This document shows, piece after piece, positions 1,971 to 14,164 of a stretch of 24,685 nucleotides of DNA. This DNA is from a virus: positions 1 to 24,685 of IMG/VR virus record IMGVR_UViG_3300042465_000466. One strand, 5' to 3'. A model generated the notes under the pieces. That model did no database searches and was not told where the DNA came from. It worked only from the letters and a program-made list of their open reading frames with translations. Within the stretch, counting starts at the first letter, position 1, and each line of letters opens with the position of its first letter. The translations under genes were made by a program, and so were the position numbers.

Positions 1971-4652
1971 ATGGCGCAACCTAAAGGTCGTACCGCAGTC
2001 ACAGCCTCGGTTTCTAGCCCTATTGGTGGTTGGAACGCTAGGGATTCTATTGCTGAAATGCCGCCATTAGATGCGGTAGTTTTAGACAATATGTTTCCTA
2101 CGCCTACTGATGTTCAGTTGCGCCTAGGTTATACCAAGGCTAGTGTTTTAACCACAACAACTGGCGTACAGACTATTTCTAGTATTACTGTTTCGGGGAT
2201 TACCGCAACCCTTATTACTGCAGCAGCACATGGTTTATCTACTGGTAACACAGTTTCAATTACTGGGGCTACCCCTGCTGGGTTTAATGGCGTTTACACA
2301 ATAACCGTTACAAATTCGACTACTTTTACTTATAAACCTATTGCTGTCCCCGCAGGAAACGCTACAGTAGTTGGTGTTTATGCAATAGGAATAACAACAC
2401 CAATTAATTCTTTAATGAATTATGCTGGGTCTTCTACTCAAGACTTATTTGCTGCTGCTGGTACAACTATTTATGATGTTTCTGGCCCTGTTGCTGTTGC
2501 CTCGCATACCATTTCCAATGACAAAATGCAGCACGTCAACATTACTACTGCTGGTGGTCATTTTCTAGTAGCTTGTAATGGTCAAGATGCCACTACCTTT
2601 TATAACGGTACAAATTGGATTAATATTGCTTCTACAGAAACGCCACAACAAGTAAACAGCATTACTAGAGTAGGTACTTTAGCTACTGCTACCACTAATG
2701 TGGCACACGGTCTTGTAACAGGCAACCAAATTGTAATGTCTGGCATTACACCAGCAGCTTATAACGGTACATTCATTATTACCGTATTAAATGCCACACA
2801 ATTTACTTATGTAATGGCAAGTACGCCAGCTTCTAGTGCTACAGCTAACGGTACTGCTTACGCAATTACTTCTATTACCAATACAGGCACAGGTGCATTA
2901 GTTACTACTGCTTCTGCCCATAATCTGTATACAGGCAACATTATTGTAGTTACAGGTGCTACTCCTGCGGCATATAACGGCACTTATGCTATTACACGCC
3001 AAAGTGCTACAACTTTTACTTATGCTTTAACTACTAACCCAGGTGGTGATGCCACAGTAGTAGGAACTTATAGTGTTGCAGCCAATACTATTACTTATTT
3101 GTCCCATAGTGGGACTCAAGCCAATGTAACAACGGCTACAGCGCATGGTTTGTTAACTGGTAACCAAATTACTGTTTCTGGAAGCACTCCAGCAGACTAC
3201 AACGGTACATTTATTATCACTAGACTTAACGATACCCAATTTACTTATGTAATGGCTACAAGCCCAGCTACAGACGCTACTGTTATTGGTTCTTATGTAG
3301 TGGTTGCCCAAACTATTCTTACCAATGTGCAAACAGGTATCGTTGCAAAGCTAACAACCCCTGTAAACCATGATTTAGTGACAGGCGACCAAGTTGTTGT
3401 TTCTGGTTGTGTACCGATTGCCTACAACGGCACATACAACATAATTGTTATTAGTGCTACAGAATTTAGCTACATAATGGCTTCAGCACCTATTACAGGC
3501 GCTACAACCGTAGGTACTTATGCCACTTTTCAAGGTGGTTACACTATTAATTACGCCATTACAGGTGTAAATAGTAACAAATTTGTTCATGTAAACCTGT
3601 TTAAAAACCGCCTATATTTCACCGAAGAAGGCAGTATGAGGGTCTGGTATTTACCAGTTAACTCTATTGCTGGTGTAGCAGAACCTTTAGAATTTGGTGG
3701 AATTGCACGCAACGGTGGCTTTATTCAAGGTATGGCTACTTGGACTATTGACGCTGGACAAGGTGCTGACGATTACGCAGTCTTTGTAACCAGCATGGGC
3801 GAAGTTATTGTCTATAACGGTACAGACCCTAATGACGCTGCGACTTGGGCGCTAAAAGGCGTATGGCAATTAGGCTATGTATTTGCAAGGCGTTGTTTTT
3901 ACAAGTTTTTGGGCGACATTCTATTGCTTACCCAAGACGGTTTAGTGCCTTTAGCTTCTGCATTGCAGTCTAGCCGACTAGACCCTAGGGTTAACCTTAC
4001 TGACAAAATTTATTACGCTATTTCTCAAGCTGCTACGCTTTATGGCATTAACTTTGGTTGGCAAATTGCGTTTTATGCAAGTGAAAATATGCTAATTATT
4101 AATGTGCCAATTAACTCAGGCATACAGCAATATGTAATGAATACTATTTCTAAGGCTTGGGCTAGTTTTACTGATATTAATGCCCAATGCTGGGAATTAT
4201 CTAATGACCAAATGTACTTTGGTGGCCCAGGTTATGTGGGCCATTTCTGGAACGCTTACTCCGATAATGGCAATAACATTAATGCGTCAGTACAACAAGC
4301 CTACAGCTATTTTGACGCTAGAGGTCAACTAAAACGCTTTACTATGATTCGCCCTATATTCCAAACAGATAACGGTATTCCTTCTGTTTTGACAGGTATA
4401 AATGTGGATTTTGACACCCAAAACAATCTTGGAACGGTGTCATTTAATGCTTTAAACGCTGCTATTGGTTCTTGGGATAACGCTATTTGGGATGAATCCC
4501 AATGGGGTGGTGCATTGTCTATTACTAAGTCATGGCAAGGTGTTACAGGTATTGGTTATTCAGGTGGTATAGCTATGAAAATAGCTTCCCAAGGTATTGA
4601 TGTGCATTGGGCTTCTACAGATTATGTAATGGAACGAGGTGGCGTTCTTTGA
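1971..4652 (+). CDS. Large tail hub/stabilisation-like protein with five internal repeats
   Basis: 893 aa. The N-terminus (GGWNARDSIAEMPP near residues 19-32, then VVLDNMFPTPTDVQLRLGY) matches the start of podovirus-like tail hub or DNA-stabilisation proteins. Residues ~70-140 and ~229-520 contain five copies of a ~70-residue beta unit with the pattern AHGL-TGN-V-SG-TPA-YNGT-IT-FTY-ATVVGTY. The C-terminal ~370 residues return to the conserved beta-rich body (LFKNRLYF, TWTIDAGQGADDYAVF, GDILLLTQDGLVPL). GGAAG lies 6 bases before the ATG. The likely role is the tail nozzle or hub that closes the connector. The repeats probably project from it as Ig-like decorations. Homology to P22 gp10 or T7 gp12 is suggested by context, not shown here. 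Confidence 0.75.
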   Translation: MAQPKGRTAVTASVSSPIGGWNARDSIAEMPPLDAVVLDNMFPTPTDVQLRLGYTKASVLTTTTGVQTISSITVSGITATLITAAAHGLSTGNTVSITGATPAGFNGVYTITVTNSTTFTYKPIAVPAGNATVVGVYAIGITTPINSLMNYAGSSTQDLFAAAGTTIYDVSGPVAVASHTISNDKMQHVNITTAGGHFLVACNGQDATTFYNGTNWINIASTETPQQVNSITRVGTLATATTNVAHGLVTGNQIVMSGITPAAYNGTFIITVLNATQFTYVMASTPASSATANGTAYAITSITNTGTGALVTTASAHNLYTGNIIVVTGATPAAYNGTYAITRQSATTFTYALTTNPGGDATVVGTYSVAANTITYLSHSGTQANVTTATAHGLLTGNQITVSGSTPADYNGTFIITRLNDTQFTYVMATSPATDATVIGSYVVVAQTILTNVQTGIVAKLTTPVNHDLVTGDQVVVSGCVPIAYNGTYNIIVISATEFSYIMASAPITGATTVGTYATFQGGYTINYAITGVNSNKFVHVNLFKNRLYFTEEGSMRVWYLPVNSIAGVAEPLEFGGIARNGGFIQGMATWTIDAGQGADDYAVFVTSMGEVIVYNGTDPNDAATWALKGVWQLGYVFARRCFYKFLGDILLLTQDGLVPLASALQSSRLDPRVNLTDKIYYAISQAATLYGINFGWQIAFYASENMLIINVPINSGIQQYVMNTISKAWASFTDINAQCWELSNDQMYFGGPGYVGHFWNAYSDNGNNINASVQQAYSYFDARGQLKRFTMIRPIFQTDNGIPSVLTGINVDFDTQNNLGTVSFNALNAAIGSWDNAIWDESQWGGALSITKSWQGVTGIGYSGGIAMKIASQGIDVHWASTDYVMERGGVL
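2178..3530 (+). repeat. Five ~70-codon repeats within the tail hub-like gene
   Basis: Repeat 1 spans about 2178-2390. After a 264-base unique insert, repeats 2-5 run in tandem at about 2655-2867, 2868-3080, 3081-3305 and 3306-3530. Every unit carries an HGL/HNL/HDL-x-TG core, a TPAxYNGT core and an F(T/S)Y strand. The copies differ at most third codon positions and many residues, so they are old duplications rather than recent slippage. Confidence 0.85.
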
Positions 4653-11239: not shown

Positions 11240-11741
11240 TTTTAAAGAATGTCTTGAGTTAGTATTAAAGGCAGAGGGTGGTTGGGTTAATCATTCTAGC
11301 GACCCAGGCGGTGAAACAAATTTAGGCGTTACTAAGCGTGTTTGGGAAGAATGGGTAGGTCACCCTGTGGAGTCCCTTAAAAGCCTTACAAAAGACCAAG
11401 TAGCACCCTTATATGAACAAAGATATTGGAGGCCTTGCTATGGAGAAGTATTGCCTAGGGGACTCGACCTTGTTGTCTTTTCAATGGGAGTTAACGCAGG
11501 GCCAGGTAGGTCAGTTAAATTGCTTCAATCAGCTATTGGATGTGTACCTGACGGAGTTATTGGCCCAAAAACAAGAGGACTTATTTGTGACTCCAATACT
11601 GCAACTCTTATCTCTAAATTCTCTGAAGCTAGACGGGAATATTACAAGTCATTAAAAACTTTTCCCGTATTTGGAAAAGGTTGGCTAACCAGAGTAGATA
11701 AGGAAGAATCAGAAGCACTTAGTCTGGCTAAGAACTCTTGA
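11229..11741 (+). CDS. Endolysin, glycoside hydrolase 108 family
   Basis: 170 aa. The N-terminal domain has the GH108 signature: the catalytic Glu16 in KAEGGWVN, then DPGGETNLGVT (residues 25-35), and a helix ending LYEQRYWRP (~61-69). The C-terminal half carries the associated peptidoglycan-binding fold (AIGCVPDGVIGPKTR around residues 102-116). The enzyme cleaves the glycan strand of peptidoglycan. There is no signal peptide, so release through the holin lesion is expected. The start lies within the end of the i-spanin gene. At its 3' end it overlaps a convergent - strand gene by 33 bases, and no intrinsic terminator was seen after it. Confidence 0.92.
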   Translation: MQGNFKECLELVLKAEGGWVNHSSDPGGETNLGVTKRVWEEWVGHPVESLKSLTKDQVAPLYEQRYWRPCYGEVLPRGLDLVVFSMGVNAGPGRSVKLLQSAIGCVPDGVIGPKTRGLICDSNTATLISKFSEARREYYKSLKTFPVFGKGWLTRVDKEESEALSLAKNS

Positions 11742-11939
11742 CCCCTTTGTAATCTGTCCTAAAGGCGTTTCTAGGCGTTTTACACGGTTGTCTGGGTGAC
11801 ACACCCACTTTGACCCCATACGCTTAATCATGGCCTTAGAATTGGCTTCATTTTGTGCCATTAATAACTCATACATTGGGTAGCTAAAGCGCCCAGCTTC
11901 AATCATTTGTTTCAATAAACTCTTGTCGTTCTTTGTCAT
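11709..11939 (-). CDS. Small hypothetical protein
   Basis: 76 aa, ATG at 11939. Helical and basic (KNDKSLLKQMIEAGRFSYPM, YELLMAQNEANSKAMIKRMG), with a C-terminal part rich in Lys and Arg and no membrane segment. Its 3' end overlaps the endolysin gene tail to tail by 33 bases. Upstream the start lies inside a 39-residue ORF in another frame. The ribosome site is weak. The amphipathic composition and the tight packing with the other - strand ORFs favour a real gene, but no family is recognised. Confidence 0.6.
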   Translation of the reverse strand: MTKNDKSLLKQMIEAGRFSYPMYELLMAQNEANSKAMIKRMGSKWVCHPDNRVKRLETPLGQITKGSRVLSQTKCF

Positions 11940-12018
11940 GGTTTTCCACTATAGTAATTTCACCACCGTTTAAATTAACGGTAAGTGACCCATTTGCTTC
12001 TTCAATAATTTCGTACAT
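11899..12018 (-). CDS. Very small acidic ORF
   Basis: 39 codons from ATG at 12018 to TGA at 11899-11901. The product begins MYEIIEEANGSLTVNLNGGE, forms a plausible beta hairpin, and ends in a charged helix. Nine or more acidic residues give it a strong negative charge. GGAAGG lies on the - strand about 14 bases upstream, which is rather far. It overlaps the next gene's start by 41 bases and follows the preceding 26-codon ORF within 3 bases. Amino-acid composition looks protein-like; proof is lacking. Confidence 0.4.
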   Translation of the reverse strand: MYEIIEEANGSLTVNLNGGEITIVENHDKERQEFIETND

Positions 12019-12020
12019 AT

Positions 12021-12101
12021 TTAAAAATAATACCTTCCAAAAACACACAAAATCATTAGAAAAAATAAAGCAATTAGAATTTCTTTAGTATTTTTGTTCA
12101 T
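12021..12101 (-). CDS. Possible 26-residue single-span membrane peptide
   Basis: ATG at 12101, TAA at 12021-12023. A short basic head (MNKNTKE) precedes one continuous hydrophobic stretch (ILIALFFLMILCVFG) and an aromatic end (RYYF), the layout of small single-span membrane peptides. It fills the gap between the 79-aa gene and the 39-codon ORF almost exactly. No clear ribosome site precedes it, and T-rich DNA can encode hydrophobic peptides by chance, so confidence is limited. Confidence 0.33.
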   Translation of the reverse strand: MNKNTKEILIALFFLMILCVFGRYYF

Positions 12102-12116
12102 TTTATGTAAAGTTTA

Positions 12117-12356
12117 TTATTCAAATAAATCATTTTGACCTGCTTTTGCTTGTAATGATTTTAGGTAATTTTTTAGGGCTTTATCATCTTCCTTAAATAT
12201 TTTATGAAATAACTGACTAGATGGCATTCTTACTCTGTTTTCGTCAAATGCGCCACGCAATACAAAGCTAGAAAACGCCCTACAAGCTAACTCATCTTTA
12301 CCGCATTTATAAGCTAGTTCGCAATTATCACAAGGGCATATTTCGGTAAAATTCAT
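12117..12356 (-). CDS. Small Cys-rich protein, possible metal binder
   Basis: 79 aa, ATG at 12354-12356. The N-terminal part holds five cysteines with the spacing C-x-C-x2-C-x6-C-x6-C (Cys8, 10, 13, 20, 27; CPCDNCELAYKCGKDELACR), which suggests a zinc or iron-sulphur site. The C-terminal half is helical (LFHKIFKEDDKALKNYLKSL). AAAGGG sits close to the ATG. It is the first gene of a - strand cluster running towards the endolysin, so it may be the main product of that transcript. Similar short Cys-rich proteins are frequent in phage accessory regions; no function is known to me. Confidence 0.7.
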   Translation of the reverse strand: MNFTEICPCDNCELAYKCGKDELACRAFSSFVLRGAFDENRVRMPSSQLFHKIFKEDDKALKNYLKSLQAKAGQNDLFE

Positions 12357-12486
12357 AAACCCTTTTTAGAAGTATCAAGTCAAAGTCTTTTTAGTCGTTC
12401 GTCTACGAGTACTTAAGCTGAATAGTGTCAATGACCTGATGTAAAGAAGTTTAGTCTAAATGCAATAGATTTATGTAGGTGTTTTC

Positions 12487-12524
12487 CCTATGTGTTGTAT
12501 TTTGCCAAACTTTACAAACATAGG
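12487..12524. repeat. Long inverted repeat in the gene-free region
   Basis: CCTATGTGTTG (12487-12497) pairs with CAAACATAGG (12515-12524): 10 base pairs with one bulged G (12494) and a 17-base loop. A smaller dyad, GACAT-CA-ATGTC (12524-12535), follows directly. No T-run follows on either strand, so this is not an ordinary terminator. Confidence 0.6.
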
Positions 12525-12564
12525 ACATCAATGTCACATTTTTGCATAATTTTTTATTGAAATT

Positions 12565-12625
12565 TTATACACTTATTTATTTTCCAAACGGGAATAATGT
12601 AAGAAAAAGTAGCGTATTTTACACA
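12565..12625. other. Two DnaA-box-like 9-mers and a hairpin in AT-rich DNA
   Basis: TTTTACACA (12617-12625) fits the relaxed DnaA consensus TTWTNCACA completely, and TTATACACT (12565-12573) fits at 8 of 9 positions. Between them, TTATTTTCC (12577-12585) pairs with GGGAATAA (12590-12597) around an AAAC loop. In AT-rich DNA such 9-mers occur by chance, so an origin is only a suggestion. Confidence 0.3.
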
Positions 12626-12677
12626 AAAATTCTCAATAGGGGCATTTTGTAAGGTTTAATAAATGATTTTTTACTAA

Positions 12678-12724
12678 GGCTTTAAGCTATTTAAGGACTC
12701 TTTAATAAGCCAACAATTCTGTTG
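12678..12724. repeat. Two adjacent hairpins
   Basis: GGCTT (12678-12682) pairs with AAGCC (12707-12711), extended by three or four pairs past a 2-base bulge. Directly next to it CAACA (12711-12715) pairs with TGTTG (12720-12724) over a 4-base loop. They stand immediately before the proposed promoter of the structured RNA. Confidence 0.4.
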
Positions 12725-12774
12725 ATATGTATACTTTTTGTCAATAAATGTACATATAGGTATTAATATGTATA
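12725..12774 (+). promoter_or_regulatory. Candidate promoter with flanking repeat
   Basis: TTGTCA (12738-12743) and TATTAA (12761-12766) are 17 bases apart, matching the sigma-70 consensus at 5 of 6 and 4 of 6 positions. ATATGTATA occurs twice (12725-12733 and 12766-12774), and TACATAT (12751-12757) is complementary to the first copy, so a regulator could bind around the promoter. Initiation would fall near 12773-12776, exactly where the structured stretch begins. Confidence 0.35.
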
Positions 12775-13019
12775 AGTCTTAGACATAGATTGACCAAGGG
12801 TGATGGGAAACCATCAACCGACCCAATGTCTATGACACCTAGTCCTTCCGAAGATAATGTTCTCTCGATAAAGGGTCTTGTATCACCTTGTCCCCTAAAT
12901 CTTCTGTAGTACCCATTTAAGTCTACGAGGCTTGCAGTCGGGTGCATGACCAGCCTATCTTTTCTTCCACGCCACCGATTTAGGTGCTTAGTACGCCTGG
13001 AGTGCGGACTGCAATAATA
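12775..13019 (+). ncRNA. Candidate structured non-coding RNA with crossing helices
   Basis: No believable ORF is seen; the only long one (12741-12947 on the - strand) lacks protein-like character. Complementary segments include a hairpin with TGATGG (12801-12806) against CCATCA (12811-12816) closed by a GAAA tetraloop and extended by CATAGA (12784-12789) with TCTATG (12829-12834). AGGCTTGCA (12928-12936) pairs with TGCA (12943-12946) and AGCCT (12952-12956). The 8-bp helix CCTAAATC (12894-12901) / GATTTAGG (12977-12984) and the 8-bp helix TTGCAGTC (12932-12939) / GACTGCAA (13007-13014) cross as a pseudoknot. The last competes with the 12928-12956 hairpin. The GNRA loop exists only on the + strand, which with the promoter upstream favours that strand. 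No terminator is evident, and no known RNA family (tRNA, tmRNA, RNase P, group I intron) is recognised. Confidence 0.38.
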
Positions 13020-13583
13020 CTACAAGTATTTATCCCTATGAAATTCTCCATGAAAACCAAAGGTTTCTAAATTTGACAATTCTCTTTCAAAAGAAAAATA
13101 CCTTGCTAATTCTTCTGGCGCAAACTTAATTCCATTGCTTACAAGGTAATCCCTATTTAAATGGCAAATAAGGTCATCTTCATTTCTTTCTTTATAAACA
13201 AACCCAGGGCTTGCAGTCAACTCTAAAAGGCGCTTACTGCGTAGGGAGAAACCCCCATTACCTACACGCAACCCTTCAGGATGCCAAGGCCATACTGCGC
13301 CTATATAGTCATAGTTTAAAAATTCTGGTTGCCAAGCGTTTGCGTTAATTATGTAACCATCCCAATGAACACTTAAAACAAATTCAGTTTTTATGTATTT
13401 ATGTAAATCAAACAACATAAATTTTGAATACTCTTGTATTGATTTAAATGGTTCAACCATTGGTGGCTTTAAAAAAATAACATCTTCAAATTGACATTGT
13501 TTTAAGCATCTATCAATAGCTTTTTGTGCTAAATGTGGATGATTAGTGTCAATGGCAAAAAGAGTTACATTATTTAGTTTCAT
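13020..13583 (-). CDS. DUF5672-like putative glycosyltransferase
   Basis: 187 aa from ATG at 13583; an in-frame TTG 12 bases upstream is less likely. The family core is clear: LSVHWDGYIINANAWQPEFL, then YDYIGAVWPWH and VGNGGFSLRSKRLLEL (roughly residues 89-142), matching DUF5672 proteins that sit in sugar-modification clusters and resemble GT-A transferases (a W-D-G motif in place of D-x-D, and GNGGF at the acceptor side). No signal peptide. The start overlaps the upstream regulator's end by 14 bases, so both are one transcript. In a phage this could modify host surface glycans against superinfection or glycosylate a virion protein. The acceptor is unknown. Confidence 0.8.
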   Translation of the reverse strand: MKLNNVTLFAIDTNHPHLAQKAIDRCLKQCQFEDVIFLKPPMVEPFKSIQEYSKFMLFDLHKYIKTEFVLSVHWDGYIINANAWQPEFLNYDYIGAVWPWHPEGLRVGNGGFSLRSKRLLELTASPGFVYKERNEDDLICHLNRDYLVSNGIKFAPEELARYFSFERELSNLETFGFHGEFHRDKYL

Positions 13584-13845
13584 CTTGTTTACCAAAAGCG
13601 TTGTTTTTTAACAACTCAGGCCATATTAACCAAAAGCTAGTAGGAAACAAGTCTTGTCTGGTTACTAACCCATGACTTTCTGTTTCAATTCTTGCACCCA
13701 ATAACATAAATTTGTCGGCTGGAATTCCCCTAATACGCCAGTTAGATACGGCAGCAGGGTCTACTTTGCACATTCTAGCCACCTTTGCTGTACCACCTAG
13801 TAGGTCAATAATTGCCGTGTCGGTTAGTTTTAATTTTGTGTCCAT
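13570..13845 (-). CDS. Cro/YdaS-like helix-turn-helix regulator
   Basis: 91 aa, ATG at 13845. Residues ~14-46 form the helix-turn-helix: LLGGTAKVARMCKVDPAAVS, then NWRIRGIPADKF. The C-terminal part has the VTRQDLFPTSFWLIWPEL ending common in phage Cro-like and YdaS-like proteins. It is divergent from the early operon starting at 13955, as phage repressor/Cro genes usually are, and probably binds the 13846-13954 interval. Only one such regulator is seen and no CI-type partner with a peptidase domain, so control of early transcription rather than a full lysogeny switch is the safer reading. Confidence 0.85.
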   Translation of the reverse strand: MDTKLKLTDTAIIDLLGGTAKVARMCKVDPAAVSNWRIRGIPADKFMLLGARIETESHGLVTRQDLFPTSFWLIWPELLKNNAFGKQDETK

Positions 13846-13954
13846 TAACGCAGTTTAACTTAAATGTTGTTTATTTGCATAGACTTTACTTTTTATATTC
13901 ACTTGTGTTAAAGTGTGTTTATAGCAATTTTGCTATGCCAAAGGGAGAAATATT
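13846..13954. promoter_or_regulatory. Divergent control region with palindromic operator candidate
   Basis: This AT-rich 109-base interval separates the regulator from the early operon. ATAGCAA-TT-TTGCTAT (13921-13936) is a 7-bp inverted repeat typical of an operator, 18 bases before the first early start codon. TGTGTT recurs at 13904-13909 and 13914-13919. No -35/-10 pair with good spacing could be fixed on either strand, so the start points are not assigned. Confidence 0.5.
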
Positions 13955-14164
13955 ATGGATGAAATGGCACAGGTAATGATGGAAGTAGAAGAACGCTTAG
14001 AAATAGCGTTAGATAACATGGAATACGGCACAGAATTGTCGCAAGACGATGTGGATGTTATTCGTGCAGCGTGCGGTAAACCCAACAACAAACGCAATAA
14101 TCTTTTGCAAGATGTTTTTAATGATTTTGGCAATGTGTTTGGAGGTAAAAATGCCTCAATCTGA
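13955..14164 (+). CDS. Small acidic protein, first early gene
   Basis: 69 aa, acidic and helical in its first ~45 residues (MAQVMMEVEERLEIALDNME, then LSQDDVDVIRAACG), with an Asn/Lys-rich middle and a Gly/Phe-rich end. AAGGGAG lies 8 bases before the ATG. It is the first gene of the early operon and overlaps the ERF gene by 14 bases. No family is recognised. Acidic first genes of early operons often bind host proteins, but nothing here proves that. Confidence 0.7.
   Translation: MDEMAQVMMEVEERLEIALDNMEYGTELSQDDVDVIRAACGKPNNKRNNLLQDVFNDFGNVFGGKNASI

Follow-up and report, generated by a model that had tools for sequence, protein, structure and literature searches.

Orphan structured RNAs that come partly from phages include GOLLD and ROOL, and a further orphan, Betaproteobacteria-1 (RF02932), is also present in bacterial genomes, with no obvious gene directly after it. 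Two other points of reference are the put element of phage HK022, about 70 nt long with two hairpins, and the nutR-tR1 region of phage lambda, which sits between cro and the replication genes. The window analysed here is a 24,685-nt stretch (IMG/VR virus record IMGVR_UViG_3300042465_000466), and the gap studied within it spans positions 12775-13019. From sequence comparison, this gap is concluded to hold the gene of a predicted, previously undescribed structured RNA, supported by strong covariation in related phages.

Inspection of open reading frames found no plausible gene in the interval, in agreement with the first-pass annotation, and the complementary words on which that annotation built its model were located in the window where it had placed them. 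The fold-energy comparison with shuffled controls that it had suggested gave a z of -0.82 for the + strand, with 41 of 200 shuffles folding equally well, and a z of -0.15 for the minus strand, so that the single window sequence lay within the shuffled range on both strands. Since complementarity in one sequence did not rise above chance, homologues had to decide. Its statement that no known family could be recognised was borne out for this new structured RNA: a search of the window against Rfam 15 returned no match at the gathering threshold, positions 11700-14100 gave none at E up to 10, RF02932 included, and 11 homologue loci gave none, GOLLD and ROOL included. A description of the gap RNA was likewise not found in literature searches on put and on GOLLD/ROOL.

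Homologues were recovered in more than 100 IMG/VR contigs and in one deposited podovirus, MW202674, by blastn, pattern scans and a covariance model, so that a hundred or more freshwater phages appear to carry the RNA. A non-coding stretch of MW202674 matched the gap by blastn (E 6e-7, 74% over 102 bases) and shares with the window the identical word GTACCCATTTAAGTCT; a search pattern built on this word retrieved 83 IMG/VR stretches, and at least 120 were recovered once the pattern was loosened to accept compensation at two pairs. The covariance model R1, built from 25 sequences with the window among them, matched 82 loci at E below 1e-37 and reached loci outside its training set with E down to 1e-43; its match in the window, itself a training sequence, covers 12829-13006, and downstream of the modelled part a 3' portion (CACCCUUGG...CUAUGUC) is kept in homologues. 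Core length among the covariance-model matches varies from 174 to 187 nt, so a reading frame is not kept. In MW202674.1 (5007-5377), three hypothetical proteins, UOF80262-UOF80264, are annotated over the RNA or beside it; they are read from the other strand and are probably spurious annotations. R1 matches were absent from 398 sampled Pseudomonadota genomes and from 349 genomes belonging to the same order as a bacterium that carries Betaproteobacteria-1, both weak negatives for want of a positive control, and no match was found in a plasmid collection. Three exact-pattern matches in genome contigs lacked the flanking structure and were attributed to chance.

The first-pass annotation had assigned the RNA to the + strand; the homologues instead place it on the minus strand, with approximate ends at 13007 and 12782. 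Evidence for this strand comes from an excess of G.U pairs, the folding of a 5' domain present in most homologues, the occurrence of C(UNCG)G-type loops on that strand, and a minus-strand -10-like box. Read as minus strand, the 5' domains contain 291 G.U against 38 A.C oppositions, core pairs 27-34 and 62-72 contain 11 and 8 G.U, respectively, with no A.C in either, and pair 31-38 of alignment A5 is U-G in 26 sequences with zero mismatches. Mean fold z of the 5' domain is -6.2 on the minus versus -3.7 on the plus strand, while the core alone folds weakly (-0.8 minus, -0.4 plus). On the minus strand, nearly all homologues have TATAAT or a close variant ahead of the RNA, TATAAT itself in most, and a clear -35 element was not seen with it; the 5' end of the RNA is predicted at about 13008-13005. 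The sigma-70-like + strand promoter previously proposed to end at 12766 is not supported: the box that is conserved lies on the minus strand. Just downstream of the RNA lies an imperfect 33-nt inverted repeat (ATATGTATAC...GTACATAT; window 12725-12757).

Covariation among homologues, a check that had also been proposed, was strong both against slid partners and against a tree-aware null. The A5 alignment comprises 62 distinct sequences with a mean pairwise identity of 0.70 (minimum 0.49) and was fitted to a model derived from its own sequences; the same core pairs recur in A2, a MAFFT alignment. Across the 62 sequences, a 36-pair model (Table 1) yields 95.9% standard pairs versus 30-41% when partners are slid, and 28 of the 36 pairs vary on both sides. 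With a home-made null in which Fitch events were reassigned randomly over a FastTree tree, in 40 replicates, 13 pairs were supported at E<0.05, ten of them at levels never reached by the null. Among these 13 are pairs that fall outside the model: two in the PD loop, one between the UNCG-type loop and a downstream base, and pseudoknot pair 37-55, which is C-G in 34 sequences, G-C in 23 and otherwise in 3 (tree-null E 0.000).

The hairpin PE is 94-95% paired with many two-sided changes, and its closing pair shows all four Watson-Crick types. PD is paired in 100% of cases, with AC/GU to CG/CG compensations inside what had been drawn as loop; the near-invariance of its UUAAAUGG loop was partly imposed, since the search patterns required the loop. 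The UNCG-type loop base covaries with a downstream purine (A5 181-193), and this pair and A5 178-186 are both at E 0.000 with 61 of 61 Watson-Crick. The pseudoknot, AUC with GAU in the window, becomes AUG with CAU in other lineages, and comparative data thus support one small predicted pseudoknot, distinct from the crossing helices described earlier.

Table 1. Features of the RNA locus in window coordinates, with the evidence for each.
Feature	Position	Strand	Evidence
Cro/YdaS-like regulator, syntenic neighbour of the RNA locus	13570-13845	minus	Pfam PF15943 (E 3.9e-7), phrog_35, phrog_8008
DUF5672 upstream cargo gene, 191 aa, not part of the RNA	13020-13595	minus	Pfam PF18922 (E 2.6e-18)
-10-like box TATTAT, immediately behind the stop codon of DUF5672	13014-13019	minus	Conserved in homologues
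RNA conserved core, about 225 nt	12782-13006	minus	R1 match 12829-13006 plus conserved 3' part
Helix PF, CCA/UGG plus inner CACC/GGUG hairpin	12967-13000	minus	Every cell paired (100%) in A5 helices 1 and 3, with as many as four pair types
Pseudoknot, PF loop AUC with downstream GAU	12957-12981	minus	A5 pair 37-55
Hairpin PE, AGGCU...AGCCU, inner GUC/GAC, loop AUGCACCC	12928-12956	minus	A5 helices 5 and 6
Hairpin PD, nearly invariant loop UUAAAUGG (loop 12913-12920)	12906-12926	minus	A5 helix 7
Helix PC, GAUnnAGGG / CCCUnnAUC	12867-12901	minus	A5 helices 8 and 9: 81-93% paired, all pairs vary two-sidedly
Small hairpin with UNCG-type tetraloop C(UUCG)G	12845-12854	minus	A5 178-186
Variable hairpin PB, UGUC AUA GACA (candidate)	12827-12837	minus	Homologues have a hairpin of varying length here
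Hairpin PA, GGU.GAUGG UUUC CCAUC.ACC (candidate)	12799-12819	minus	Homologues have a hairpin here, with variable sequence

A 5' domain of a further 100-150 nt precedes the core in most homologues. It starts directly behind the TATAAT box, closes with a long helix and then a U-tract, and may also terminate transcription of the upstream gene. In dozens of different sequences the crossing helices of this domain keep their mutual complementarity. Near-identical cores bear quite different 5' domains (L009 and L012), which suggests that the domains behave as recombining modules. A hypervariable double-pseudoknot form of the domain was noted upstream of the core in L009, L012, L023, L027 and L034. 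The window, L030 and several close relatives are without the domain, and there the -10-like box stands directly before the core.

The Cro-like regulator is the conserved neighbour of the RNA locus in related phages, and the locus is flanked on one side by this regulator, often with a cargo gene, and on the other by small genes or a replication operon. In the window and in L113, L140, L016 and L168, the slot between regulator and RNA holds a DUF5672, PAPS-reductase-like or GDP-mannose-dehydratase-like gene. A survey of 80 IMG/VR phages whose regulators are 68-96% identical to that of the window found the gap RNA at the locus in 17, Betaproteobacteria-1 in 40 (called by motif; all ten calls tested were confirmed by cmscan), a third RNA in six, sharing GUCGACACC-like and UUGGUCGUUC-like words, and no RNA in nine, where a promoter-like palindrome comes right after the regulator; the remainder were cut off or unclear. 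Two RNAs at one locus were found in none of the 80. The words GUCGACACC and UUGGUCGUUC mark the structured-looking third RNA in L144, L166, L171, L179, L124, L170 and L093; those tested against Rfam (L093, L144, L166, L171 and L179) gave no match, and it is a candidate for a new family in its own right. The RNA-less alleles (L148, L150, L152, L154, L158, L161, L163, L164 and L165) show the regulator, then the TTGACCTAGGTCAA palindrome, then the next operon. Betaproteobacteria-1 was common beside a Cro-like regulator in freshwater phage contigs (L089 and ten further loci); L089 carries it at 3481-3605, followed by an HNH endonuclease ORF. As relatives carry either Betaproteobacteria-1 or the third RNA in the same locus, the three are probably functional alternatives.

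The best reading, and one we think rather likely to be right, is that the gap encodes an exchangeable, self-standing minus-strand phage ncRNA acting in trans. A structured RNA of about 225 nt would be transcribed from a promoter located where the DUF5672 gene ends, within a locus bounded by the Cro-like regulator (with a cargo gene, where present) and by the operon that follows, and it would present both the UUAAAUGG loop and its compact fold to a host or phage factor; although its near-invariance is in part a product of the search patterns, this loop is the obvious candidate contact. The varied next genes and the exchangeability favour such a self-standing, trans-acting RNA. Points on this side are the mutually exclusive replacement of RNAs, the RNA-less alleles, the bacterial contexts of RF02932, and next genes that range from replication genes in MW202674 to terminase in L228 and a ParB-like gene in L210. 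The RF02932 analogy itself adds little, because the function of that RNA is not known. The main rival is a cis-acting leader, in which the RNA would be the 5' part of the next operon's transcript and act on RNA polymerase or ribosomes, for example as a put-like antiterminator; this appears unlikely, if far from negligible. The locus can be likened to the place of lambda nutR-tR1, with the Cro-like regulator on one side and an Erf/SSB operon opposite. In MW202674 the RNA stands first in a unit, mostly co-directional, that comprises replication, terminase, structural and lysis genes; terminase genes follow the RNA directly in L228, the 5' domain has a terminator-like end, and inspection by eye revealed no intrinsic terminator beyond the RNA. 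It is this position together with the missing terminator that keeps the leader hypothesis alive, and a next gene that is co-directional in most lineages, with no terminator noticed, is what a leader would show and counts against the trans-acting reading. That the window is without the 5' pseudoknot domain weighs against the trans-acting reading too. Against a leader, the window has only a few small, unassigned minus-strand ORFs between the RNA and the convergent lysis genes, a separate promoter-like TTGACA/TAATAT follows the RNA in several lineages, and L007, a 4.2-kb contig in a comparison where many contigs are fragments, has no co-directional gene after the RNA at all, a convergent lysis-cassette ORF ending about 45 nt beyond.

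The remaining explanations fare far worse. Inverted repeats in DNA, as at a replication origin or a packaging site, could mimic RNA structure, and such a DNA-level element would fit the proximity of regulator and replication genes; yet only one strand tolerates G.U pairs, and the compensations extend to a pseudoknot that a DNA site does not need, which leaves this explanation very improbable. The other two turn on the pair of crossing 8-bp helices that the first-pass annotation had put forward as a pseudoknot. The helix CCTAAATC/GATTTAGG (12894-12901 / 12977-12984) is fully paired in one of 67 aligned homologues, with a mean of 54% of positions, and the 5' word of the second (TTGCAGTC; 12932-12939 / 13007-13014) occurs in six of 61, so both helices are coincidental; in the comparative model CCTAAATC forms part of the PF hairpin with its pseudoknot, and GATTTAGG lies in PC. 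A known ribozyme or intron of group I type, suggested by the P3/P7 crossing order of these helices on the minus strand, is about as improbable as the DNA element: a conserved P3/P7 pseudoknot was not found, and neither was an Rfam match even at E 10. A + strand RNA switching between competing helices is scarcely credible, for although the words are complementary, strand and conservation evidence contradict it, and the proposed switch falls with the crossing helices. The local hairpin at 12928-12956, cast as the competitor, is real and corresponds to PE, conserved with compensatory changes; that at 12801-12816 also exists, but its GNRA loop does not survive, as GAAA lies on the non-transcribed strand and the minus strand reads UUUC. 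A TnpB/IscB-associated RNA was rejected, such a nuclease gene being absent beside the RNA.

As a tentative possibility, a single locus in freshwater phages would be reserved for an RNA effector. Any of three or more structured RNAs, unrelated to one another, could occupy it and perform one shared function in trans, in many cases preceded by a recombining 5' pseudoknot module of hypervariable sequence. The exchange of unrelated RNAs at one locus is unusual, and would mean that for phages structured RNAs are interchangeable cargo in the way small proteins are. The work also adds a well-supported RNA class absent from Rfam.

Among described systems, HK022 put resembles the gap RNA in position, since the place between a Cro-like gene and the next operon recalls that of nut and put, and a put-type leader position before a co-directional operon is seen in MW202674 and most lineages, L007 excepted; the core differs from put in being 225 nt long and pseudoknotted and, in L007, in having no gene after it. 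GOLLD and ROOL, named as precedents by the first-pass annotation, hold as such only in being orphan phage RNAs: they are much larger and neither matches. Betaproteobacteria-1 shares with the gap RNA the same locus in close relatives after the same regulator and cargo genes, a similar -10 box, and the character of a small structured orphan RNA, whereas its sequence and helices are different, neither model detects the other, and it is found in bacterial genomes in contrast to the gap RNA in the 398 plus 349 sampled (no positive control). Its placement in phages as an allelic alternative to the gap RNA gives this orphan bacterial RNA, and the gap RNA with it, a testable shared context.
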